A stretch of 32,474 nt of DNA from Methylosinus sporium (GTDB lineage Bacteria > Pseudomonadota > Alphaproteobacteria > Rhizobiales > Beijerinckiaceae): the NCBI RefSeq assembly GCF_003113265.1, contig NZ_PUIV01000038.1, positions 1 to 32,474 on the forward strand, in the 5' to 3' direction. Shown piece by piece: positions 8,966 to 28,295 of this stretch. The notes under the pieces are model-generated. The model saw only the letters and a program-made list of their open reading frames with translations, did no database searches and had not been told where the DNA came from. Position 1 is the first letter of the stretch. Every line of letters begins with the position of its first letter. The position numbers were made by a program, and so were the translations under genes.

Positions 8966-8986
8966 AGGTCCGCCTCAGGCGGACCT
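8966..8986. terminator. Perfect palindrome spanning the stop codon of the exopolysaccharide gene
   Basis: AGGTCCGCCT (8966-8975) and AGGCGGACCT (8977-8986) are exact inverted repeats around one base. The palindrome is centred on the TGA stop of the reverse-strand gene ending at 8975. It may fold as a strong stem with a small loop and end transcription, but no T-run follows on either strand. A protein-binding site is the alternative. Confidence 0.4.
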
Positions 8987-11140
8987 GCGCGCCTGCGAGC
9001 GGCGGCGCGCATCGCGGCGCGGCAGCCAGGGGTCGCTGTGATCGACCCGCAAAATCACGGCGATCTTCGCGCGTAGCGCCTGCGGAAGCTCGGCGATCGC
9101 GGTCTCCTCGTCCTGATCGCGGCCGAGCACCGGCGCAACACAGTCGAGCCGCTCGAACATGCTCTCGTCCGAGCCGACGCCGTCGCAAAGCACAATGTCG
9201 ACCTCGGCCGGACAGCCGTCACGGAAATCATCCACGATCCGCTCGACCGCGCCGGCCGAGCGCGAGCGCCGATCGATGGCGGGCAACGCCAGCAGCACGC
9301 TGTCATCCGTGCGCACGAAAGGATCCTCGGCGTCGCCGAAAGCCTCGAGGCCATCCTCGATGAGAACGGTGAGCGCCGCATGATCGCGGTCGGCGTCGAT
9401 GAGCGCGACCTCGAAATGCTGCATACGCAACGCCAGAGCGATATTGACCGCCATCACGGTGCGGATCGAGCCCGGCGCGTCGCCGACGATTCCGACGACG
9501 AGCGGGCGATGCGCGCTCTCCTCGACCAGCGCGCTGAAGCGCGACACCACCGCCTCGAGCTCGCGGCGATCGGCGAAGGGCCGCACGAAGGGAATTCCGA
9601 GCCGCGTCAATTCGAGCCGGTCCGGCTCCGCCGCTGGACCGCGAACAGTGAATTTCGTCGCATCGGTCACGGCGATGCGCAGCGGCTGGGCTTCGGCGTC
9701 GCGACGGGGCGCAGCTTCCGGGGCCGCGCCGCTGAAGCCGCGCTCGCGCAGAAACACCAGGCCGAGCCCCAGAGTGAGACCCGCTACGAAGCCCGCGCTC
9801 GTCATCAGACCGGCGCCGGGCGGAAAGCTGCGCGCGATCGGCGGCGTCGCCATTGTGATGATATGCGTGCTGGCGGCGTCGAGCTGACGCGCCTCGCCGG
9901 TCTGACGCGAGCGCGTCAGGAAGGATTCGTAAATGCTGCGGCTGACCTCGACCTCACGTTCGAGATCGCGCAGCTTGACGGAGGCTTGCGCCGAGAGGAC
10001 AGCCTTGCTCTCGAGCTTCTGCATCTCGCGGTTCAGCGCCTCTTCCGTGCCGCGCGCCCGCTCATAATCCTTGCGCAGCGAGGCCGCGACGCGCGCGAGC
10101 TCCGCGCTGACGAGACGCCGCGTTTCCGCGAGCCGCGCCGTGACGTTTTTGACGACCGGATGCTGCGGCCCGAGCTCGGCGGAGAGATCGGCGAGCTTTT
10201 GCGCCGCCTCCGCCTGCTGCCCGCGCAGAGCGTTCAAGGTCGTGAGATTCATATTAGCGGCGATAGCGGCGAGCTCGGTATCGGACCGCGCCGCGCGCTG
10301 CGCCTGTTCGAAACGCGAGCGCGTGTCCTCGAGCCGCGTACGGGCGAAAGTGAGCTGCTGATTGAGCTCTTTCAGCCGCTGCTCGTCGATATAAGAGTCC
10401 CGCGTGCCGACGAAGCCGTTTTCGGCCTTATAGGCCTCGACCGATTTTTCGGCGGCGAGCAGGCGCTCGCGCAGCCCGTCGAGACGTCCTGTGAAGGATG
10501 TCGCCGCCTGATTCGCGGCGTCCTTATGCATGGCCGAGCGCACATCGATATAGGCCTGCGCCACCGCATTGGCGATGCGCGCCGACTTCTGGGCATTGTC
10601 GCTCGAGGCGGCGATGTCGATGATGAAGGTGCGCTCGGGACGCCGAACCATGATCTTCGTGCCGAGAACGCGCACGGCGCCGGCGACGATCTCCTCCTTG
10701 GTCGGCGTGCGGCCGAAATGGCCGAACAGCTTGCCGAACAACGACGTCGACGCGCCGAACTCGGGATCGTCGGTCAGTTTCTCGGCTTCGACGACGCGCT
10801 CGAGCACGACCTGCGAGGTCAAAATGCGCGTCTGCGTCTCGACGAAATTGATGAAGCCGGTGGAATCCTGCCCCTGATTGGCGTCGCCCTCGAGGCCGGG
10901 CAGACCGCGCGGATCGAGATAGATTTGCGCGGCGGCGACATAGCGCGGCGTCAGCAGCTTGGTCAGCGCATAGCCCCCGGCCGCACAGGCGAGCGCCACC
11001 GACACGATGAACAGCTTGTTGCGAAGCGCGAGCGCGATCAGCCGTCCCGGCGTCAGCGAGGAACGGGCGCGCCTCGGCTCCGCGGCCGCAGGACGTTCAC
11101 GCTCCGCCACGCCTTTCGACCCGGATTCATAATCCAACAT
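8975..11140 (-). CDS. Exopolysaccharide chain-length/export protein (Wzz-GumC type with degenerate BY-kinase domain)
   Basis: The 721-residue protein is a polysaccharide co-polymerase that would set chain length or help export of a surface glycan. It has a first transmembrane helix (43-60) followed by the Wzz segment PRYVAAAQIYLDPRG. A long periplasmic coiled-coil region follows, then a second helix (about 443-464) and a cytoplasmic P-loop-like domain. In bacterial tyrosine kinases this domain carries a Walker A Gly-Lys-Ser/Thr. Here the corresponding segment is GDAPGSIRT (553-561) without the Lys. The Walker A' motif ALIDAD (579-584) is kept, and no Tyr cluster ends the protein. I infer a kinase-dead domain. 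The start is the ATG at 11140; an in-frame ATG at 11188 would add 16 residues, and neither has a strong ribosome-binding site. No glycosyltransferase or polymerase genes are adjacent. Confidence 0.88.
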   Translation of the reverse strand: MLDYESGSKGVAERERPAAAEPRRARSSLTPGRLIALALRNKLFIVSVALACAAGGYALTKLLTPRYVAAAQIYLDPRGLPGLEGDANQGQDSTGFINFVETQTRILTSQVVLERVVEAEKLTDDPEFGASTSLFGKLFGHFGRTPTKEEIVAGAVRVLGTKIMVRRPERTFIIDIAASSDNAQKSARIANAVAQAYIDVRSAMHKDAANQAATSFTGRLDGLRERLLAAEKSVEAYKAENGFVGTRDSYIDEQRLKELNQQLTFARTRLEDTRSRFEQAQRAARSDTELAAIAANMNLTTLNALRGQQAEAAQKLADLSAELGPQHPVVKNVTARLAETRRLVSAELARVAASLRKDYERARGTEEALNREMQKLESKAVLSAQASVKLRDLEREVEVSRSIYESFLTRSRQTGEARQLDAASTHIITMATPPIARSFPPGAGLMTSAGFVAGLTLGLGLVFLRERGFSGAAPEAAPRRDAEAQPLRIAVTDATKFTVRGPAAEPDRLELTRLGIPFVRPFADRRELEAVVSRFSALVEESAHRPLVVGIVGDAPGSIRTVMAVNIALALRMQHFEVALIDADRDHAALTVLIEDGLEAFGDAEDPFVRTDDSVLLALPAIDRRSRSAGAVERIVDDFRDGCPAEVDIVLCDGVGSDESMFERLDCVAPVLGRDQDEETAIAELPQALRAKIAVILRVDHSDPWLPRRDARRRSQARRSA

Positions 11141-11565
11141 CACGCGAGTTCCGTTTCGACGTCGAACAAGCGAGCGCAGCCCCCACATTCACGTTGAAGA
11201 CGAATGTTCCATTTCATGGTTAACTTTTCTTGAACCCCTCTTCTCTCATTCATCTTCTTCATGTCGAAATTAGGGTCCCGCGGCGCGAAATAGCCAGACG
11301 GCTCCGTTGTGACAGAAATCGGGACGCCTCGAGTGTCTCGCTCATGTCCAGCGCAGCATAGCCACGTGCCATTTTCACTCAGATCGGCGCGAAACCCTCG
11401 CCGGAACGCGTCGAATTTTATGGAATGGATTTGGCAACGGCCAAAACTGGATTTGGCGACGGTCAAATCCGCAAACTGTTCACCAACTGGCTGCAAATTA
11501 GCTGAAAATAATGCGCAACGGCGTATGGTGACGATGGAACTAGAGCTTGGTCGATGGAGATGAGG
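11141..11565. promoter_or_regulatory. Divergent intergenic region between the exopolysaccharide gene and the carrier-protein operon
   Basis: About 425 bases, more AT-rich than the flanks, hold no convincing gene. The region must contain promoters for both directions. It holds the tandem repeats at 11427-11470 (separate entry). Near 11219-11235 is a TTAA-N7-TGAA arrangement, a near match to a CtrA-type site that I would not call without a position matrix. I could not identify a definite -35/-10 pair. Confidence 0.6.
11427..11470 (+). promoter_or_regulatory. Two tandem 22-bp imperfect repeats, probable operator
   Basis: Two direct copies start at 11427 and 11449. Both begin GGATTTGGC, share ACGG and CAAA, and agree at 18 of 22 positions. 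Each also has internal dyad symmetry: TTTGGC-N4-GCCAAA in the first copy and GGATTTG-N8-CAAATCC in the second. The spacing of exactly 22 bp places both copies on the same face of the helix. They lie about 95-140 bases before the carrier-protein gene, a suitable place for a dimeric regulator. The regulator is unknown. Confidence 0.55.
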
Positions 11566-11814
11566 ATGCTCGATACGATTAGACGACTCGTCGATGAACA
11601 AGGACGTTTGTCGAAAGCGGCCACGGCGATCGGCGACGACGCGGATCTCTACGCGGCGGGCCTCACATCCTTCGCCGCTGTCCAGCTCATGCTGGCGCTC
11701 GAAGAGACCTTCGACGTCGAATTCCCCGATCATATGCTCAATCGTCGCAGCTTCTCCTCGATCTCGGCGATCGCCGGCTGCCTGCATGAGCTCAAGGGTG
11801 AGGAAGCCGCCTGA
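11566..11814 (+). CDS. Acyl carrier protein, partner of the amino acid:[carrier protein] ligase
   Basis: This 82-residue protein is a phosphopantetheine carrier. The attachment site is Ser35 in DLYAAGLTSFAAVQLM, where Thr replaces the Asp of the usual Asp-Ser pair. The rest shows the four-helix pattern of acyl carrier proteins, with LALEETFDVEFPDHML after the Ser and a closing helix SISAIAGCLHEL. ATGs occur at 11554, 11560 and 11566. I use 11566 because GGAG lies 6 bases upstream of it. The stop overlaps the next start (TGATG at 11812-11816). The gene lies two positions before a class II synthetase-like ligase, so I infer that it carries an amino acid thioester rather than a fatty acid. A phosphopantetheinyl transferase must act from elsewhere. 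Confidence 0.88.
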   Translation: MLDTIRRLVDEQGRLSKAATAIGDDADLYAAGLTSFAAVQLMLALEETFDVEFPDHMLNRRSFSSISAIAGCLHELKGEEAA

Positions 11815-12971
11815 TGAATGCGCCGCTCGATCGCGGAGCCGATGTCGTCACGACAGCCGCCCGCCACGCCGACGATGTCGACCGCAATGGCCGCTTTCCC
11901 ATCGAAGCGGTCCGGGCGCTCAAGGACGCGCGACTTCTGTCGCTGCTGATCCCGGTCGAATTCGGCGGCGGCGGAGCTTCGCTCTTCGACGTCGCGGAGA
12001 TCTGCACCTCGCTCGGCCAGCGATGCGCCTCGACGGCGATGATCTTCGCCATGCATCAGATCAAAGTGTCGAGCCTCGTCGCGCATGGCCGCGGCAGCGC
12101 CTGGCACGAGGACTTCATGCGCCGCCTCTGCGACGAGCAGCTGCTGCTCGGCTCCGCGACGACCGAAGGCGGCATCGGCGGCAATATGCGCAACAGCATT
12201 TGCGCCTTCGAGCGCGATGGCGCGACATTCCGCATCGCCAAGGAAGGCGCGCTCATTTCCTATGGCGCCTATTCCGACGCGATCCTCGTCACCGCGCGCC
12301 GCGCCGCCGACGCGCCGCCCTCCGATCAGCAAATGGCCGTGCTCGAGAAGAGCCAATATCGTCTCGAGCGCACCGGCGGCTGGGACGCGCTCGGAATGCG
12401 CGGCACTTGCAGCGAAGGATTCACCTTCAGCGGCGAGGCGCCGGTCGAGCAGATCTTCACTCATGATTTCGCCGAGATCGCCTCCGAGTCCATGCTCGCG
12501 ACAGCGCATCTCCTGTGGAGCGCCGTATGGTTCGGCGTCGCCTCCGACGCGCTCTCGCGCGCGCAATCCTTCGTGCGCAAGGATGCGCGCCGCCATCCGA
12601 ATGGCCCGGCTCCCGGCGCACTGCGCCTCGCGGAAGCGACAGCAAAGCTACAGCTCATGCGCTCCAATATCGTCGAAGGCCTCAAGCGCTTCGCCAAGGC
12701 GCAGCAGAATGAGGACGACCTCAATTCGATGAGCTTCGCCGTCGCGATGAACAACATCAAGATCGGCTCGTCGCAACTCTCGATCGAGATCATCAATCAT
12801 GCGCTGCTGATCGCCGGCATCGCGGGCTACAAGAACGACACGCCCTTCAGCGTCGGACGCCACATGCGCGACGCGCTCTCGGCGCAGGTGATGATCTCGA
12901 ACGATCGCATCTTCACCAATCTATCCAACATGCTGCTCGCGCAGCGCATCGACCAGCGGCTGGGAGAGTGA
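11814..12971 (+). CDS. Acyl-CoA dehydrogenase-like flavoprotein
   Basis: The 385-residue product has the acyl-CoA dehydrogenase fold. It shows an N-terminal helical part (ALKDARLLSLLIPVEFGG), a middle beta domain (LLLGSATTEGGIGG) and a C-terminal helical part with IAGYKNDTPFSVGRHMRDAL. In typical members the catalytic Glu lies nine residues after the conserved Arg of the Arg-Asp pair, in the motif Glu-Gly-Thr. Here that stretch, from Arg352, reads AQVMISNDRIF and contains no Glu. This suggests a changed reaction (oxidase, monooxygenase or another carrier-bound oxidation), although some family members place the base in another helix. The start overlaps the carrier-protein stop, and the ligase follows after 3 bases. 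I infer that it acts on the aminoacyl group on the carrier protein. Confidence 0.85.
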   Translation: MNAPLDRGADVVTTAARHADDVDRNGRFPIEAVRALKDARLLSLLIPVEFGGGGASLFDVAEICTSLGQRCASTAMIFAMHQIKVSSLVAHGRGSAWHEDFMRRLCDEQLLLGSATTEGGIGGNMRNSICAFERDGATFRIAKEGALISYGAYSDAILVTARRAADAPPSDQQMAVLEKSQYRLERTGGWDALGMRGTCSEGFTFSGEAPVEQIFTHDFAEIASESMLATAHLLWSAVWFGVASDALSRAQSFVRKDARRHPNGPAPGALRLAEATAKLQLMRSNIVEGLKRFAKAQQNEDDLNSMSFAVAMNNIKIGSSQLSIEIINHALLIAGIAGYKNDTPFSVGRHMRDALSAQVMISNDRIFTNLSNMLLAQRIDQRLGE

Positions 12972-12974
12972 CCC

Positions 12975-13886
12975 ATGTGCCAGGCCTGCGACAGCTTCCT
13001 AGACCGCCTCTTCGCCAAAGGCGTTCTGCATGAGACCGGCGTCGACGGACTCTATGGCCGGGGGCAGGCCTTCGAGGCGGTCATAGAGGGAATGGATCGG
13101 CTGATCACGCGCACCGCAGCGAATGATCATGCCGAGGTCATCCGCTTTCCGCCCGGCATGAATCGCGCGCTCTTCGAGAAGAGCGGCTACATGAAGAATT
13201 TTCCGCAGCTCGCCGGCACGGTTCACAGCTTCGCCGGCAGCGAGAGGGATCATCTCGCCCTTCTCGACAATATTCACAATGGCGGCGACTGGACCGGCGG
13301 ACAGGGCGCGACCGACATCGTACTGACTCCCGCCGCCTGCTATCCGCTCTATCCGATCGTCGCGCGGCGCGGGCCGCTCGCGCCGGAAGGCGGTCTCTTC
13401 GACATCCAATCCTATTGCTTCCGCCACGAGCCGTCGAAAGATCCCGCGCGTATGCAAATGTTCCGTATGCGCGAATTCGTGCGCATCGGCCTTCCGGAGC
13501 AGGCTGCGAGCTTCCGCGAATCCTGGCTGGAGCGCGCGCGCGACTTCGCAGAGACGCTGCAGCTTCCGCATCACATTGATGTCGCGAATGATCCTTTTTT
13601 CGGCCGCGCCGGGCGCATGATGGCCTCGAGCCAGCGCGAGCAGGCGCTGAAATTCGAGCTGCTAGTGCCGATCGAGAGCACGGAAAATCCGACCGCCTGC
13701 CAGAGCTTCAACTATCATCAGGACCATTTCGGCGAGCTCTGGGGCATCACGACCGCTTCGGGCGAGACGGCGCACACCGCTTGCGTCGGCTTCGGCATGG
13801 AGCGTCTCGCCCTCGCCTTGTTCAAACATCATGGGATCGACACCAATGGCTGGCCGAACTCAGTCCGCGCTGCTCTCTCGCTCTGA
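12975..13886 (+). CDS. Amino acid:[carrier protein] ligase (class II aminoacyl-tRNA synthetase homologue)
   Basis: The 303-residue protein is related to the catalytic core of atypical seryl-tRNA synthetases but has no tRNA-binding domain. The studied Bradyrhizobium homologues activate Gly or Ala with ATP and load it onto the phosphopantetheine arm of a small carrier protein. Class II motif 2 is [20 protein letters not shown] (148-167) and motif 3 is GFGMER (272-277). Candidate zinc ligands are Cys122, Glu167 and Cys270. They sit at a constant offset of nine from the Cys131/Glu176/Cys279 set I recall for the Bradyrhizobium enzyme. This supports an intact, metal-dependent amino acid pocket. The carrier gene two positions upstream is the obvious partner. 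Which amino acid is used cannot be read from the sequence. Confidence 0.93.
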
Positions 13887-14853
13887 CGCGGAGCTTACGC
13901 CGCCGAAGCCGGCGAAACCGCATTTCCGTCATGCGCTGCATCATGCAGAACGCGATTGGCCGCAGACCAACTGCTATGTCGACCTCATGATCGAGCTCGT
14001 GGCCATGCGCGGCTTCGAGCCCGAGGCCATGCTCGGCTTCACGCTGGCGCAGGATTGCGAAGAAGACCATTTCACCTTCTTCAAGCCGCGACTCGCCGAT
14101 CTCGAGCGCCTCTACGGCCTTCGCGTCGAGGAGCTCGCGCTCTACGATCGGCTGGACGACCATATCGAGCGCCAGACCGCGCGCGGCCGCGTGGTGATGG
14201 TGGAAGTGGACGGCTATCATCTGCCGGACACGCGCGGCGTCACCTACCGCATCGATCATTCCAAGACGACGATCGGCGTCACGGAAATCGACATGCGCGC
14301 GCGACGGATCGACTATTTCCACAATGACGGCTATTTCGCGCTGGATGGCGAAGATTTCGACGCCATCTTCGGCCGCGCCGGCGAGGCGCGCGATCCGTCG
14401 AGCCTGTTCCCTTACGCCGAATTCGTGCGCTTCGACCGCGAGCGCCCGCATAGAGATTTGCGCGCATTGGCGGAAGCGCTGGCGAGCGAGCATTTCGCGC
14501 GCCGCCCGAGCGACAATCCGATCCGCGCCTTCGCCGCGCGCTTCCCGGCGCTGTGGAATGTGCTGGAGGCGCGTCCGCCCTGCTTCTTCCACAGCCTCGC
14601 CTTCAACACGTTTCGCCAGCTCGGCGCCAATTTCGAGCTGCTCGGCAGCCATCTCGATTGGCTGCGGCCGGATGGCGATCTCGCCGCCGAAGCGGACGCC
14701 TGCCGGCGGATTTCCGCCGGCGCCAAGGCGATGCAGTTCCAGGCGGCGCGCGCCTCCGCGCGCAAGCGCGTCTATGATCCGCGCGAGACGCTGGATGAGC
14801 TCGCCGCCGTCTATGACGGCTTGTTCGCAGGTCTCTCGGCCAAGCTGCGCTGA
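13846..14853 (+). CDS. DUF1839 family protein
   Basis: The 335-residue protein belongs to DUF1839, a family without an assigned reaction that regularly accompanies amino acid:[carrier protein] ligases. Visible conserved-looking blocks are [19 protein letters not shown] near the start, [23 protein letters not shown] and [15 protein letters not shown]. The presence of Cys, His and Asp in these blocks would fit a catalytic role such as a transferase that takes the amino acid from the carrier, but this is inference. The start is uncertain: ATGs at 13831 and 13846 both lie inside the end of the ligase gene, giving a 41-56 base overlap. There is no signal peptide or membrane helix. It is followed after 8 bases by the GH2-like gene. 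Confidence 0.85.
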
Positions 14854-14861
14854 GGTCGCCG

Positions 14862-17312
14862 ATGCGTGCGCGCGTCGAAGGAGAAAAGCGCCAGCGTCTC
14901 GACGCCGGTTGGACTTTTGTGATCGACGAAGCGGGCGAATGGACGCAGCCCTCCGACATCCCCGCCGCCGCGCGCTGGCGCGCCGCGCGCGTTCCGGGCA
15001 CGCTGGCGCAGGCGCTGATCGCGGAAGGCGCGAGCTTCGACGATCTGCCGCCGCTGGATTCGATCGACGTCTGGTACAAGACCGCCTTCGTCAATTCGGC
15101 GCGGGCGGAATTGCAGCTGCACGGCCTCGCCACTCTCGCGGATGTCTATCTCGACGGCCAACTCGCGCTGCGCTCGGACAATATGTTTCATGCGCATCGA
15201 ATAGAGATCGAGACGCCTGGCGCGCATGATCTCCACATTCGCTTTCGCTCCGTCGAGCGCGAGATCGCGACGAAGAGCGGACGCGCGCGCTGGCGGCCGC
15301 GGATGATCGCTCCGGCGGGGCTACGCCACATTCGCACGACGGCGCTCGGCCGCCTGCCCGGCTTCGCGCCGCCGACGCCGCCGCTCGGACCGTGGCGTGA
15401 AGTCGAGCTGATCGAGCATGGCGCGCTGCGTCTGCGCGCTATCGATATGCGCCCACTCGTCCACGAAGGTCGCGCCAGCCTGCACGTCGCGCTCGAGATT
15501 TCCGGCGCCGCAGACGCTCCTGCTCGGCTCTTCTGCGGCGAGGCGGAAACGCGTTTCGAGCGCGTCGCCGACAATCGCATCGAGGCGACGCTCGCTCTGC
15601 CGGATGCACAACTGTGGACGCCGCATACGCATGGCGAGCCGCATCTCTACGCTGTCGCGGCGACGATCGGCGATCTTAGCGTCGATCTCGGCCGTACCGG
15701 CTTTCGCGACATCGACGTCGATCGCGGCGCGGATGGCGCCGGCTTCGCGCTTCGCGTGAACGGCATTGCTCTCTTCTGCCGCGGCGCCTGCTGGACGACG
15801 GCCGACGCAGTTTCACTCGCTGGCGAGCGCGAGGATTGCGCGCCGCTGTTGCGCGCCATGCGCGACGCCGGCATGAACATGGTCCGCATCCCCGGCGTCA
15901 CTCTCTATGAGAGCGATGATTTCTACGCGCTCTGCGACGAGCTCGGGATTTTGGTCTGGCAGGATTTCGCCTTCGCCAATTTCGATTATCCGTTTCAGGA
16001 CGCCGCCTTTCGCGCCAGCGTCGAAAGAGAAGCGACGGAGTTTTTGGCGCGCACACGATCTTCGCCTTCGCTCGCCGTGCTCTGTGGCGGCAGCGAGGTC
16101 TATCAGCAAGCCTCCATGCTCGGCCTCGCCGAAGCGAAATGGCGCTCGCCGCTGTTCGACGAAACGCTTCCGCGGCTCGTCCATGCGCAGCGGCCGGATG
16201 CGATTTACGTCGAGAATTCACCTTCCGGCGGACCCCTGCCCTTTCATTCGGACACGAGCGTGTCGCATTACTACGGAGTGGGCGCCTATCGTCGCGGCCT
16301 CGAGGATGCGCGCCGCGCCAATGTGCGCTTCGCCTCCGAATGTCTCGGCTTCGCCAATATCGCCGATGACGCCGCGTTGCGCCGCGACTTCGGCGACGCC
16401 CCGCTCGCATCGCCTCTCTTCGCCGGACGCATCGCGCGCGACATGGGCGCGACGCAGACTTTCGGCGACGTCACCGAACATTACATGCGCCTGCTCTATG
16501 GCTGCGATCCGGCGACGTTGCGCGAGAGCGATCCGCAACTCTATCTCGACATAGCGCGCGCCGCAGTGGCCGAGACGATGGAGGCGACGATCGGCGAATG
16601 GCGACGCGGCGGCTCTACGACTCATGGCGCCATCGTCTGGTTCCTCGAGGATATGTGGCCCGGCGCCGGCTGGGGCGTTCTCGATGCGCGTGGCGAGCCG
16701 AAATCCGCCTATCACGCTTTGGCGCGCGCCTTTCGTCCGCTGTCGCTCATGCTCACGGACGAAGGCGTCAACGGGCTCTTCGCGCATCTGCGCAACGACG
16801 GACCGCAGCGCATAGAAGGCGAGATTTCGCTCGCCTGCTATCGCGATGGCCATGTGCCGGTGATGAAAGCGAGCCGCAGAGTCGCCGTCGAGCCGCATGG
16901 CGTCACCACATTGCGCGACGCGGAATTCTGGGGCGGCTTCTTCGATACGGCGCTCGCCTATAATTTCGGCCCGCCGTCGCATGATTTGACAGTGGCGCGC
17001 TTCACAGTCGCGCAAAGCGGCGCCGAGATCGACGCCTTTCATTTTCCGCTCGGGCGCAACGCGATCAAATCGCAGCTCGGGCTACGCGCGGAGATCGCGG
17101 AAGACGGCGACGGATTCGTTCTCGCTCTGTCGACGAACCTCGCCGCGCAATCGGTGGCGATCGACGACGAATTTTTTCTTCCTCGCGACAATTGGCTGCA
17201 TCTCGCGCCGGGCGCGACGAAATGCATTCGCCTCGTCGCACGATCGGCCGACGCGAAGCGACCGAAGGGAATGGCGAGAGCGCTGAACGGGGAAGCGGTC
17301 CGCTACGGTTGA
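14862..17312 (+). CDS. GH2 family beta-mannosidase-like protein
   Basis: The 816-residue protein has the glycoside hydrolase family 2 order. A jelly-roll sugar-binding domain comes first (about 1-180, with LHGLATLADVYLDGQLA). An immunoglobulin-like domain follows, then a TIM barrel from about 295 containing LGILVWQDFAFANFDYPF (361-378), as in beta-mannosidases, and a C-terminal beta domain. The nucleophile is Glu493 in RFASECLGF. The acid/base is Glu412, but the preceding residues are CGGSE where mannosidases have CGNNE. The Asn that binds the sugar 2-hydroxyl in this clan is therefore Ser. No signal peptide is present, so it should be cytosolic. It ends the carrier-protein operon, 8 bases after the DUF1839 gene. 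The true substrate is unknown and may be an aminoacylated or otherwise modified sugar. Confidence 0.87.
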   Translation: MRARVEGEKRQRLDAGWTFVIDEAGEWTQPSDIPAAARWRAARVPGTLAQALIAEGASFDDLPPLDSIDVWYKTAFVNSARAELQLHGLATLADVYLDGQLALRSDNMFHAHRIEIETPGAHDLHIRFRSVEREIATKSGRARWRPRMIAPAGLRHIRTTALGRLPGFAPPTPPLGPWREVELIEHGALRLRAIDMRPLVHEGRASLHVALEISGAADAPARLFCGEAETRFERVADNRIEATLALPDAQLWTPHTHGEPHLYAVAATIGDLSVDLGRTGFRDIDVDRGADGAGFALRVNGIALFCRGACWTTADAVSLAGEREDCAPLLRAMRDAGMNMVRIPGVTLYESDDFYALCDELGILVWQDFAFANFDYPFQDAAFRASVEREATEFLARTRSSPSLAVLCGGSEVYQQASMLGLAEAKWRSPLFDETLPRLVHAQRPDAIYVENSPSGGPLPFHSDTSVSHYYGVGAYRRGLEDARRANVRFASECLGFANIADDAALRRDFGDAPLASPLFAGRIARDMGATQTFGDVTEHYMRLLYGCDPATLRESDPQLYLDIARAAVAETMEATIGEWRRGGSTTHGAIVWFLEDMWPGAGWGVLDARGEPKSAYHALARAFRPLSLMLTDEGVNGLFAHLRNDGPQRIEGEISLACYRDGHVPVMKASRRVAVEPHGVTTLRDAEFWGGFFDTALAYNFGPPSHDLTVARFTVAQSGAEIDAFHFPLGRNAIKSQLGLRAEIAEDGDGFVLALSTNLAAQSVAIDDEFFLPRDNWLHLAPGATKCIRLVARSADAKRPKGMARALNGEAVRYG

Positions 17313-26409: not shown

Positions 26410-27909
26410 CTATTTGCCTTCGATCGTCTTGCGCGCCTCGTCACGCAGCAAACGGCGGGAATCGTCGCGGATATAGGACATGTGCCCGCCGGGCACGGTC
26501 ACGAGCCGCACGCGAGTCGTCTCGCCGAAAGCGGGCAGCTGATCGATGAGCAGCTTGCTCGCATAATAGGGCGTCACCAGATCTGCGAGCCCATGGGCGA
26601 CGAGCACTTTCAAGCGGGCGTCGAGCGCGAGCTCGTCGCGCAAGGTCGAGACGGCCTCCGCATTGGCGCGGCCGCCGCGGCCGAAGTCCCAATCATGCGC
26701 GACCTTGTGATTGAGAATCTCATAGCGCGCATCGCCGATCGGCCATTGCAATTTCTCGATCGTCAGGCGCGTCATGGCGGCGCCGAGCGGCGCGGCGAGC
26801 GCGTCGAGCACCGGATCAGCCCAATTGCTCTCGCGCGAGAAGGGCCGCGGATCGAAGCCCGTGATCTCGCCGTCATAGGCGCTGGAGACGCGATGCGAGG
26901 CGCGCAGACGATCGCGCAGAAACGTCTTCAGCGCGACGCGGCCGCCCTCCTCCGTCACGATCCGCGATTCCAGCCCGGTGAAGCGCGTGACATTGGCGTC
27001 GAGCCGCTCCAGAGCCTCCTTGTCGCGCGGGCCTTTGAGCAGATCGACGAGAAACTCGCCCGAGGCGTAGGCCTCGACATCGGCGAGCTCGGCGCGCTGC
27101 TTGGCGTCGCGGGCCACCGCCGCATAGGACGGCAGGCGGCCCGCCAGCGACAGGAGATTGCGCGGGCTGTCCAGCCAGGCGAAATCCAGCGCCGGCGAGA
27201 TCAGCACCAGACCTTCGACGCCTATGCTCTCGCGCTCGCGCAGCGCATGGGCGAGCTCGACGGCGCGAAAACCGCCATAGCTCTCGCCGACCAGAAACTT
27301 CGGCGAAGCGATGCGCCGATGCGTCGCCAGCCATTTGCGCACCACGACCGCGAGCGCCTCGGCGTCTCCCTGCGCCGAGAGGAAGTGCTTTCGCATCTCC
27401 TCATTGTCGGTGAGGAATTTGCTGTAGCCCGTGCCCGGCGGATCGATGAAGACGAGATCGACGAAAGGCAGCCAGCTTTCGGCATTGTCGACGAGGATGG
27501 GCGGCGCCGAAGGCGACAGCGGTCCGGAGCCGAGCGACAGCCGCCAGGGCGAGACGCCGCCGAGTCCGAGCCAGGCGGAAGCGGCGCCCGGCCCGCCATT
27601 GAAGACGAAGGCGATGGGCCGGGCCAGCGCATCGACGTCGGAGCGCTCATAAGAGACATAGGCGACGTCGACCCTCGGCGCGCCGCTTTGCGCGTCACGC
27701 AGCCGCACCGCGCCGGCGCGCGCGAGAAAGGATAGTTTCTCGCCGCGGATCGACATGGAATGCGTGGTCGTGACCTCTGTCGGAAGGCCTTGCGATTGGT
27801 CCGCGGCCTCCTCGCTCTCCTTTTTCTGCGCCGCGGGCGGCGCCGCGAGGCTCGACGAGCCCGCGAGCACAAGAGCGAGAGCGAGCGCAATCCAGGCTTT
27901 GGAAATCAT
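26410..27909 (-). CDS. S10 family serine carboxypeptidase-like peptidase
   Basis: The 499-residue protein is an alpha/beta-hydrolase of peptidase family S10. The start is the ATG at 27909, with AGG 8 bases upstream. Residues 1-23 are a signal peptide ending Leu-Ala-Ala, so the protein is exported. FVFNGGPGAASAWLGLGG (101-118) supplies the oxyanion-hole region. The catalytic triad is Ser210 in GESYGG, Asp443 in HGLADLVTPY and His476 in GGHMSY. All three residues are present, so it is likely active. Bacterial S10 members of this size are poorly studied, and the substrate is unknown. It lies upstream of the receptor operon on the same strand, but the 309-base gap with its own regulatory features suggests separate transcription. 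It is divergent from csbD. Confidence 0.9.
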   Translation of the reverse strand: MISKAWIALALALVLAGSSSLAAPPAAQKKESEEAADQSQGLPTEVTTTHSMSIRGEKLSFLARAGAVRLRDAQSGAPRVDVAYVSYERSDVDALARPIAFVFNGGPGAASAWLGLGGVSPWRLSLGSGPLSPSAPPILVDNAESWLPFVDLVFIDPPGTGYSKFLTDNEEMRKHFLSAQGDAEALAVVVRKWLATHRRIASPKFLVGESYGGFRAVELAHALRERESIGVEGLVLISPALDFAWLDSPRNLLSLAGRLPSYAAVARDAKQRAELADVEAYASGEFLVDLLKGPRDKEALERLDANVTRFTGLESRIVTEEGGRVALKTFLRDRLRASHRVSSAYDGEITGFDPRPFSRESNWADPVLDALAAPLGAAMTRLTIEKLQWPIGDARYEILNHKVAHDWDFGRGGRANAEAVSTLRDELALDARLKVLVAHGLADLVTPYYASKLLIDQLPAFGETTRVRLVTVPGGHMSYIRDDSRRLLRDEARKTIEGK

Positions 27910-28056
27910 GACACGACCTTTCATTCCACGATGTGAGAACAGATAGCGCCGCGCTCGAGCGTGGCGAAGGGCGATGGAACCATATCCATCGGCAAGAATT
28001 GTCATCCGATCCTGCGGCGCTCGAAAATAGACGCGCCCGAGTAGAGGAGAAGAACG

Positions 28057-28257
28057 ATGGAGTGGAACCAGATCGAAGGCAATTGGAAACAGGCCAAAGG
28101 CAAGATCAAAGAAAAATGGGGCGACTTGACCGACGACGACCTGACCAGAATCCAGGGCAAGCGCGACCAATTCGAAGGCGAATTGCAGAAACGCTACGGA
28201 AAAAGCAAGGAAGCCGTTCAAAAAGATGTCGATGAATGGCTGAAAACGCTCCATTGA
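28057..28257 (+). CDS. CsbD family stress-associated protein
   Basis: The 66-residue protein is a CsbD family member: small, very hydrophilic, and typically induced by general stress. It shows the family core WNQIEGNWKQAKGKIKEKWG at 3-22, followed by LTDDDLTRIQGKRDQFEG and LQKRYGKSKEAVQKDVDEWL. The start ATG has a strong GAGGAGA site. A GGAAC sequence lies about 80 bases upstream, but I see no matching CGTT at the spacing of an EcfG promoter. A strong GC hairpin follows the gene. Its molecular role is not established in the family. Confidence 0.92.
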   Translation: MEWNQIEGNWKQAKGKIKEKWGDLTDDDLTRIQGKRDQFEGELQKRYGKSKEAVQKDVDEWLKTLH

Positions 28258-28295
28258 GCGACGCCTCTCCACTGCACTCCCAGGGGAGAGACAAA

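Follow-up and report, generated by a model that had tools for sequence, protein, structure and literature searches.

What does a short operon make when it joins a carrier protein and an amino acid-activating enzyme to a glycosidase-like protein? The question is raised by the 32,474-nucleotide contig NZ_PUIV01000038.1 (positions 1 to 32,474 of the forward strand, the window hereafter) from the 3.79 Mb genome of Methylosinus sporium. Five genes on its + strand, at 11554–17312, form an apparent operon encoding an acyl carrier protein (ACP), an acyl-CoA-dehydrogenase-fold flavoprotein, an amino acid:[carrier protein] ligase, a DUF1839 protein and a glycoside hydrolase family 2 (GH2)-like protein. 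An initial annotation, made from the DNA letters and their translations, had the ligase load an amino acid, the flavoprotein change it, DUF1839 transfer it and the GH2 protein handle a sugar part. We consider it probable that these genes, with a sixth lying outside the window, constitute a carrier-protein-dependent pathway that links an amino acid, modified by the flavoprotein, through an amide to an amino sugar of an exported glycan. This reading is supported by the co-occurrence of the six genes, by the resemblance of DUF1839 to the condensing enzyme CcbD and by a similar prediction dating from 2010.

The Five Genes Occur as a Set

A scan of named genomes for DUF1839 yielded at least 569 relatives among 594 candidate stretches, of which the best 80 were kept, a choice biased to near relatives. 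To offset this bias, even samples of 199 genomes of the order and 385 of the class were searched as well. Gene presence was counted by tblastn, as our own gene calling sometimes took antisense open reading frames (ORFs) over DUF1839. The five genes are collinear on one strand in 77 of the 80 named loci; two of the exceptions (L047 and L104) run off their contigs and the third (L056) is a partial copy.

The order sample contains 26 genomes with DUF1839, spanning 14 genera, and 36 with a ligase over the cut-off (40 with any ligase match). In all 26, 32–209 bp separate the ligase match from that of DUF1839, and GH2, matched at 43–49% identity (100% for the window's own), starts less than 5 kb from DUF1839. 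ACP and flavoprotein are found upstream of the ligase in all 24 order genomes fetched, and both the window's genome (G000) and G283 are also positive. By contrast, the 10 order genomes with a ligase over the cut-off and no DUF1839 have no such GH2 (relatives at 29–32% identity in two of them). In the class sample, 10 genomes have a ligase over the cut-off and five have DUF1839, which adjoins the ligase in all five, accompanied by ACP and flavoprotein; two of the five are also in the order sample. In G186, the GH2 gene is not in place but on another contig. Azospirillum lipoferum has the same gene order, as do, outside the class, Mycetohabitans rhizoxinica and Caballeronia. Since the order persists in Hyphomicrobiales loci, in Azospirillum and on these two Burkholderiales plasmids, the set is not a chance grouping. 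The five-gene arrangement is thus real, strongly conserved and no artefact, and the genome-neighbourhood comparison that the initial annotation proposed as its check comes out in its favor, both among the named loci and in 26 of 26 DUF1839 genomes of the order.

Partial copies occur in two Rhizobium leguminosarum strains (L124:9432-11429, on a plasmid, and L056:4081-6065), each comprising the second half of the ligase, the whole of DUF1839 and the first fifth of GH2. At L056, the ligase begins at residue 141 and GH2 ends at residue 160, with no ACP or flavoprotein despite 4 kb of upstream DNA; transposase genes are annotated near L124. Both look like decayed second copies.

A Tandem Hydrolase Is a Sixth Member

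The initial annotation was right that the five genes are conserved together, but the set it described is incomplete, as an equally conserved sixth gene lies outside the window. Clustering of neighboring proteins identified a protein of ∼600 amino acids composed of two α/β-hydrolase halves, encoded in the flank of 65 of the 80 loci. Its profile (E ≤ 1e-30) detects 26 of the 199 order genomes, exactly the 26 that bear DUF1839, and none of the 10 with ligase and no DUF1839. For unrelated draws, identical sets would arise by chance with a probability of ∼10^-32, an overstated figure as the genomes (14 genera) share ancestry. In six of the 26, the hydrolase is more than 20 kb from DUF1839 or on another contig, so the link between the two is more than proximity. 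Each of the 26 therefore carries ACP, flavoprotein, ligase and GH2 beside DUF1839, plus the tandem hydrolase in the genome. Full-length hydrolase is likewise present in all five class-sample DUF1839 genomes, and addition of the three not in the order sample brings the count to all six genes in 29 of 29 distinct genomes. Among plasmid records, the numbers with DUF1839 and with the hydrolase agree for Azospirillum (11/11), Mycetohabitans (9/9), Burkholderia (4/4) and Cupriavidus (4/4). The GH2 and hydrolase matches of G186 lie directly against each other, as a pair apart.

Four further class-sample genomes contain a hydrolase match. Two of these (G147 and G306) have one half of the protein only. 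In G131 (L029), a full-length tandem hydrolase lies beside ligase and ACP, and in G316 (L034) a partial one lies beside a ligase and a weak, partial ACP match; both loci are without DUF1839, this GH2 and the flavoprotein. These reduced loci suggest that the hydrolase may act directly with aminoacyl-ACP.

For this and the other proteins, residue counts include close relatives (thinned sets are A3, A4 and A5 only), and the main alignments leave out rows beyond length limits or at ≤60 bits. The hydrolase ORF set also leaves out L125, which duplicates a stretch of L126, and L127, and two ORFs of <500 amino acids are off the alignment. The first half of the protein lacks an elbow nucleophile, the position being Gly in 52 and Arg in 19 of 71 rows. 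The second half retains a triad of Cys401 (71/71), Asp527 (69/71) and His560 (71/71). The protein exceeds 900 amino acids in 28 of 73 ORFs; in the sole ORF of this length scanned, that of R. johnstonii 3841, a Polysacc_synt_3 (Wzx-type) flippase domain precedes the hydrolase. In the window's genome, one of the six in which hydrolase and DUF1839 lie apart, the gene resides on contig C7, with genes for a GT2 glycosyltransferase and a Wzy_C protein next in line.

The two halves match the exosortase A-associated hydrolases 2 (TIGR03100) and 1 (TIGR03101), respectively. Unlike these, they are joined in one protein, and all scanned copies score under the curated cut-offs (111.6 versus 168.45 and 103.6 versus 202.75 bits for the copy in the window's genome). 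An exosortase-system link was set aside on these scores; no search aimed at an exosortase was made. Separately, a 620-residue ORF in the window (26410-28272, − strand) has serine carboxypeptidase and α/β-hydrolase matches and adjoins a TonB receptor gene.

DUF1839 Resembles Carrier-Dependent Condensing Enzymes

The DUF1839 protein matches its own family, PF08893, at 377.7 bits (cut-off 22.5), the only Pfam match over cut-off, and nothing in NCBIfam at E ≤ 0.1. With its structural model (pLDDT 86.5), all 18 PDB matches at E ≤ 0.001 are chains of AziU3/U2, CtaG or CcbD; the likeness spans nearly the full length, and the conserved cysteine starts a helix. BtrH itself is not among the fold matches listed. 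Cys48 and His164 are present in 75 of 75 rows, as is Thr or Ser at both 146 and 147, in agreement with the C(T/S)H triad reported for DUF1839 in an earlier study (PMC10318531). The spacing of C48, T147 and H164 parallels that of the CtaG residues mutated according to PDB titles (C11, H128 and D144). According to a review, carrier-bound proline is first transferred to a cysteine of CcbD and from there to a thiooctose, which receives it on its amino group (PMC12945683). Because of the fold matches, together with conserved residues that match the published triad, DUF1839 probably works like CcbD, and the model lends support to the role of transfer enzyme first proposed for it.

DUF1839 thus shares its fold and conserved cysteine with a group comprising the lincosamide condensing enzymes CcbD and LmbD, CtaG, AziU3/U2 and BtrH, and with CcbD the use of a carrier-bound amino acid donor, as proposed here for DUF1839 and described for CcbD in the review (PMC12945683). 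It differs from the group in having Thr/Ser in place of the catalytic histidine, with the histidine third; in a donor predicted to be loaded by a tRNA-synthetase relative; and in its glycan context.

The Predicted Loading Module Belongs to a Known Family

Amino acid:[carrier protein] ligases became known around 2010. The ligase of the window scores 497 bits against NF005479 (curated cut-off 357) and matches the solved structures 4h2w (E 7e-101) and 3mey (E 2e-99). Its 303 residues form a catalytic core without the tRNA-binding domain, residues 115–297 matching 312–505 of the seryl-tRNA synthetase 3w3s. C122, E167 and C270, which we take to correspond to the Cys, Glu and Cys zinc ligands of the family, occur in at least 95% of 94 rows. 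The ACP matches PF00550 (E 1.7e-9) and NF005480 (108.8 bits, cut-off 72), and Ser39 is kept in all 82 aligned rows. Its closest solved relatives are Atu2571 (2jq4) and the carrier chain of 4h2w; Agrobacterium Atu2571 is a strong match (E 2.6e-22), the Bradyrhizobium carrier (4h2s chain C) a weak one (E 0.002).

Bradyrhizobium homologs of the ligase reportedly load Gly or Ala onto a carrier protein, as the initial annotation noted. The homology holds over the full length of the ligase, but not equally for the carrier, given the weak Bradyrhizobium match. Loci with ligase and flavoprotein but without DUF1839 and GH2 also exist (L028, L032 and L033), and bll0957 (3mey) adjoins bll0958, an acyl-CoA dehydrogenase (PMC10888616). 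Because of the weak carrier match and these reduced loci, the loading data may concern a subtype other than that of the window, and the loci without DUF1839 and GH2 are perhaps of the Bradyrhizobium type. Compared with bll0957 and the 4h2w complex, then, the ligase family is alike over its full length and the window carrier is close to that of 4h2w; the systems may differ, if the Bradyrhizobium type is ligase and flavoprotein without DUF1839 and GH2.

In a ligase tree, the DUF1839-linked ligases group together with weak support (62/39; 63% of bootstrap trees). A distant subfamily from class genomes (L035–L040, 25–32% identity), whose members in the tree have very long branches, had no other query protein matched in the fetched stretch. 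Ligase relatives also occur outside Proteobacteria, on Streptomyces, Apilactobacillus and Priestia plasmids.

The Flavoprotein Lacks the Usual Dehydrogenase Base

Family assignments are firm for all members except the flavoprotein, which is only distantly related to named acyl-CoA dehydrogenases. It matches Acyl-CoA_dh_N (PF02771, E 5e-11). In an alignment to 8i4p, the column of the canonical base glutamate, taken here as the MCAD-type position, is occupied by Ile361, and by Ile or Val in 84 of 85 rows (a gap in the other). His232 is present in at least 95% of rows and is invariant in a thinned set of 28. Flavoproteins from three loci without DUF1839 have this segment in common with the DUF1839-linked ones. 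As a correction to the initial annotation, which calls the protein dehydrogenase-like, the usual dehydrogenase base is absent.

We regard it as evenly balanced whether the flavoprotein is an N-oxygenase, of KijD3/nitrososynthase or DszC type and using O2 and reduced flavin, rather than an α,β-dehydrogenase. Such an enzyme would yield an N-hydroxy or oxime aminoacyl-ACP; this bears on one step only and is compatible with the glycan pathway proposed here. The loss of the glutamate argues for it, as do sequence matches to KijD3 and DnmZ and the rank of TdsC as first fold match to the AlphaFold model (pLDDT 89.1), and monooxygenation was suggested already in 2010 (PMC2922099). On the other side, NCBIfam gives the dehydrogenase FadE16 as top match (104.8 bits, cut-off 600), the acyl-CoA dehydrogenase 7p98 leads the PDB sequence matches, and the majority of the 50 fold matches listed are acyl-CoA dehydrogenases.

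The GH2-like Protein Has an Altered Motif

The last protein of the operon matches Glyco_hydro_2_N2 (E 1.1e-13), with the β-mannosidase 5n6u as its best solved relative (E 6.5e-48). It shares with the β-mannosidases 5n6u and 2je8 a sequence match over most of its length and both catalytic glutamates, the acid/base Glu412 and the nucleophile Glu493, each found in 81 of 81 rows. An asparagine directly before the acid/base is a hallmark of GH2 and is seen in 2je8. The window protein differs in having serine at this position (residue 411; Ser in 80 of 81 rows, Asn in one), in its setting in an apparent biosynthetic operon and in the absence of a signal-peptide-like N terminus by a simple hydrophobicity measure. 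The retained glutamates, the serine and the N terminus suggest a cytoplasmic step on an unusual sugar; its role in the pathway is a guess.

Glycan-Export-Type Genes Lie near the Set in Most Genomes

A Wzz-type protein is encoded divergently, 365 bp upstream of the operon, and scores 152 bits against TIGR01005, under the cut-off of 411.7; it is probably part of the pathway context. Of the 26 order genomes, 21 encode a Wzz protein no more than 20 kb away from DUF1839 or the hydrolase (∼1.0 expected), and 11 encode a Polysacc_synt_3 protein at such a distance (∼0.58 expected). With the DUF1839 site alone, the counts are 17 (0.65 expected) and 8 (0.36 expected). These expectations are rough, resting on random placement and simple factors for two sites. 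Glycosyltransferases of the GT4 type are a recurrent feature of Rhizobium-type loci. This enrichment, the fusion of hydrolase and flippase and the GT2 and Wzy_C genes beside the hydrolase together support a glycan as the product.

The same enzymes could instead make a small secreted conjugate of amino acid and amino sugar, a lincosamide- or butirosin-like signal or antibiotic, in place of decorating a polysaccharide. CcbD, among the nearest folds to DUF1839, belongs to an antibiotic pathway, the plasmid collection has 59 records with DUF1839 (megabase replicons among them), and the exporter genes near the cluster vary. We nonetheless think a small conjugate unlikely, as the cluster or its hydrolase has Wzz, Wzx, Wzy and glycosyltransferase genes nearby far more often than roughly expected and the hydrolase is fused to a Wzx-type flippase domain.

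Several observations weigh against the exported-glycan pathway or its parts. The neighborhood exporters include MFS (Phyllobacterium) and ABC types (Azospirillum, some 4 kb off, and Agrobacterium), a variety that would fit a small exported molecule as well. Five of the 26 genomes have no Wzz within 20 kb of either site (G283, G554, G394, G407 and G440), though G407 has a flippase domain beside the hydrolase, and four have no Polysacc_synt_3 protein anywhere at E ≤ 1e-5. Seven Caballeronia plasmid records have DUF1839 and two the hydrolase, and in Caballeronia M1242 there is no tandem hydrolase within the 25 kb read. The fold comparison does not tell monooxygenase from dehydrogenase for the flavoprotein, as TdsC/DszC monooxygenases, acyl-CoA dehydrogenases and KijD3 score alike. 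For DUF1839, TM-scores to the matched enzymes are moderate (0.51–0.59), and weaker fold matches (E ≥ 0.036) include phytochelatin synthase and cysteine peptidases. It scores 13.9 bits against BtrH_N (cut-off 29.7; E 0.063) and departs from the canonical Cys-His-Asp/Glu order, the catalytic histidine being out of its usual place; as both triad order and score fail, DUF1839 is not assigned to BtrH_N. That the papain-like DUF1839 is a hydrolase of cell-wall glycan processing in an acyl-CoA-dependent setting, as a 2023 paper suggests from genome context (PMC10318531) and weak cysteine peptidase fold matches (E 0.23 and above) might allow, is highly improbable, given the adjoining aminoacyl-ACP ligase in 26 of 26 genomes, the AziU3/U2, CtaG and CcbD identity of all 18 significant fold matches and, by the simple hydrophobicity measure, an N terminus with no hydrophobic stretch typical of export.

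Organization of the Locus

The initial description of five overlapping or near-touching genes is accurate: all are + strand ORFs, with an overlap of 1 nt between ACP and flavoprotein and gaps of 3 nt between flavoprotein and ligase and 8 nt between DUF1839 and GH2. DUF1839 overlaps the ligase by 56 nt if its first ATG is the start; its Pfam match begins at residue 33. The end of the cluster given there stands, but its ACP start, 11566, is an in-frame ATG four codons inside the start listed in the table. The nearest named relative among the matches listed is Methylosinus sp. Ce-a6 (L042), with 82–93% protein identity over the six genes. Promoter and terminator scans gave counts about equal to those of shuffled sequence, and an Rfam scan gave tRNA as its sole match.

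Table 1. Features of the operon and its divergent neighbor in the window
Feature	Coordinates	Strand	Basis
Carrier protein (ACP); phosphopantetheine site Ser39	11554..11814	+	PF00550 and NF005480 over cut-off
Acyl-CoA-dehydrogenase-fold flavoprotein	11814..12971	+	PF02771; AlphaFold model matches
Amino acid--[acyl-carrier-protein] ligase, truncated seryl-tRNA-synthetase-like	12975..13886	+	NF005479; 4h2w, 3mey
DUF1839, papain-like, proposed carrier-protein-dependent amide synthase; Cys48, Thr146/147, His164	13831..14853	+	PF08893
GH2 β-mannosidase-like protein; acid/base Glu412, nucleophile Glu493, Ser411	14862..17312	+	5n6u, E 6.5e-48
Wzz/GNVR exopolysaccharide chain-length/export protein, divergent from operon	8975..11188	−	PF02706, 1.1e-9

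In many Rhizobium-type loci, the ACP is immediately preceded by genes for EpmA and a lysine-2,3-aminomutase-like protein (clusters of 32 and 33 loci), for example at L118:5307-6365 and L074:6272-7321, so that two tRNA-synthetase relatives are close together. EpmA is the EF-P lysine aminoacylase and belongs to EF-P modification. The pair was set aside as pathway parts, being seen neither among the window ORFs scanned nor in the Azospirillum, Mycetohabitans and Caballeronia annotations; its closeness to the ACP is probably a matter of shared chromosomal location.

Discussion

The exported-glycan pathway that we favor would run in five steps. First, the ligase would adenylate a small amino acid, for which its homologs suggest Gly or Ala, and load it onto the ACP phosphopantetheine. 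The flavoprotein would then oxidize the bound aminoacyl group, more likely at N or across Cα/N than across Cα/Cβ; ordinary Cα/Cβ dehydrogenation is disfavored because the catalytic glutamate is absent and glycine has no Cβ. Third, Cys48 of DUF1839 would accept the acyl group and hand it to a sugar amino group, on the model of CcbD in the lincosamide pathway. Next, ahead of the flippase step, GH2 and the tandem hydrolase (the second half of the latter bearing a Cys-Asp-His triad) may act on the sugar at the cytoplasmic side, processing it or adding a further acyl group. Finally, the Wzx/Wzy/Wzz-type machinery observed in the neighborhood would export or polymerize the product. The amino acid, the sugar, the flavin chemistry and the GH2 role are all inferred.

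It is possible, if somewhat doubtful, that the route goes further and places an oxidized amino acid on a lipid-linked repeat unit, a chemically undescribed glycan modification. Its six proteins would be a loader derived from a tRNA synthetase, a carrier, a base-less flavoprotein, DUF1839 as an amide synthase whose triad is rearranged, a GH2 of the cytoplasm that has Ser for Asn and acts on an unusual or amino-acylated sugar, and a tandem hydrolase with a Cys nucleophile, tethered to the flippase in some genomes.

The basic idea is essentially a published one. A note added in proof to a 2010 article in Biology Direct (PMC2922099) placed the ligase in one setting with an ACP, a redox enzyme, a glycosidase, liposaccharide genes and a conserved ORF, Atu2574. 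It foresaw Atu2574 acting as an amide ligase that couples an amino acid to a cell-surface sugar through the sugar's amino group. Judging by gene order, Agrobacterium Atu2574 is presumably DUF1839. The window set has the composition of this StRS/ACP/Atu2574 system (ACP, redox enzyme, ligase, conserved ORF, glycosidase and lipo/polysaccharide genes), and gene content and predicted chemistry are the same. The 2010 note is a prediction only and makes no mention of the tandem hydrolase, the flippase fusion, the transfer-enzyme fold or the altered GH2 motif. The initial interpretation therefore gains support for amino acid loading onto a carrier, transfer by DUF1839 and a sugar side, but it was largely anticipated: its remark that no end product had been published agrees with our finding none in open-licence literature, whereas the pathway prediction itself had appeared in 2010 (PMC2922099).

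This kind of system had thus already been predicted. As far as the literature searched goes, what is new is the tandem hydrolase inherited together with the set, its fusion to a flippase domain, the likeness of DUF1839 to CcbD in fold, the loss of the base in the flavoprotein and the changed motif of GH2. The nearly invariant active-site departures in the enzymes of the set suggest unusual chemistry. Six co-inherited genes, a likely amide-synthase mechanism for DUF1839 and the gene fusion to a flippase domain together indicate where the product should be sought: in rhizobia, Azospirillum and methanotrophs, with the glycans that these export as the first fraction to examine.

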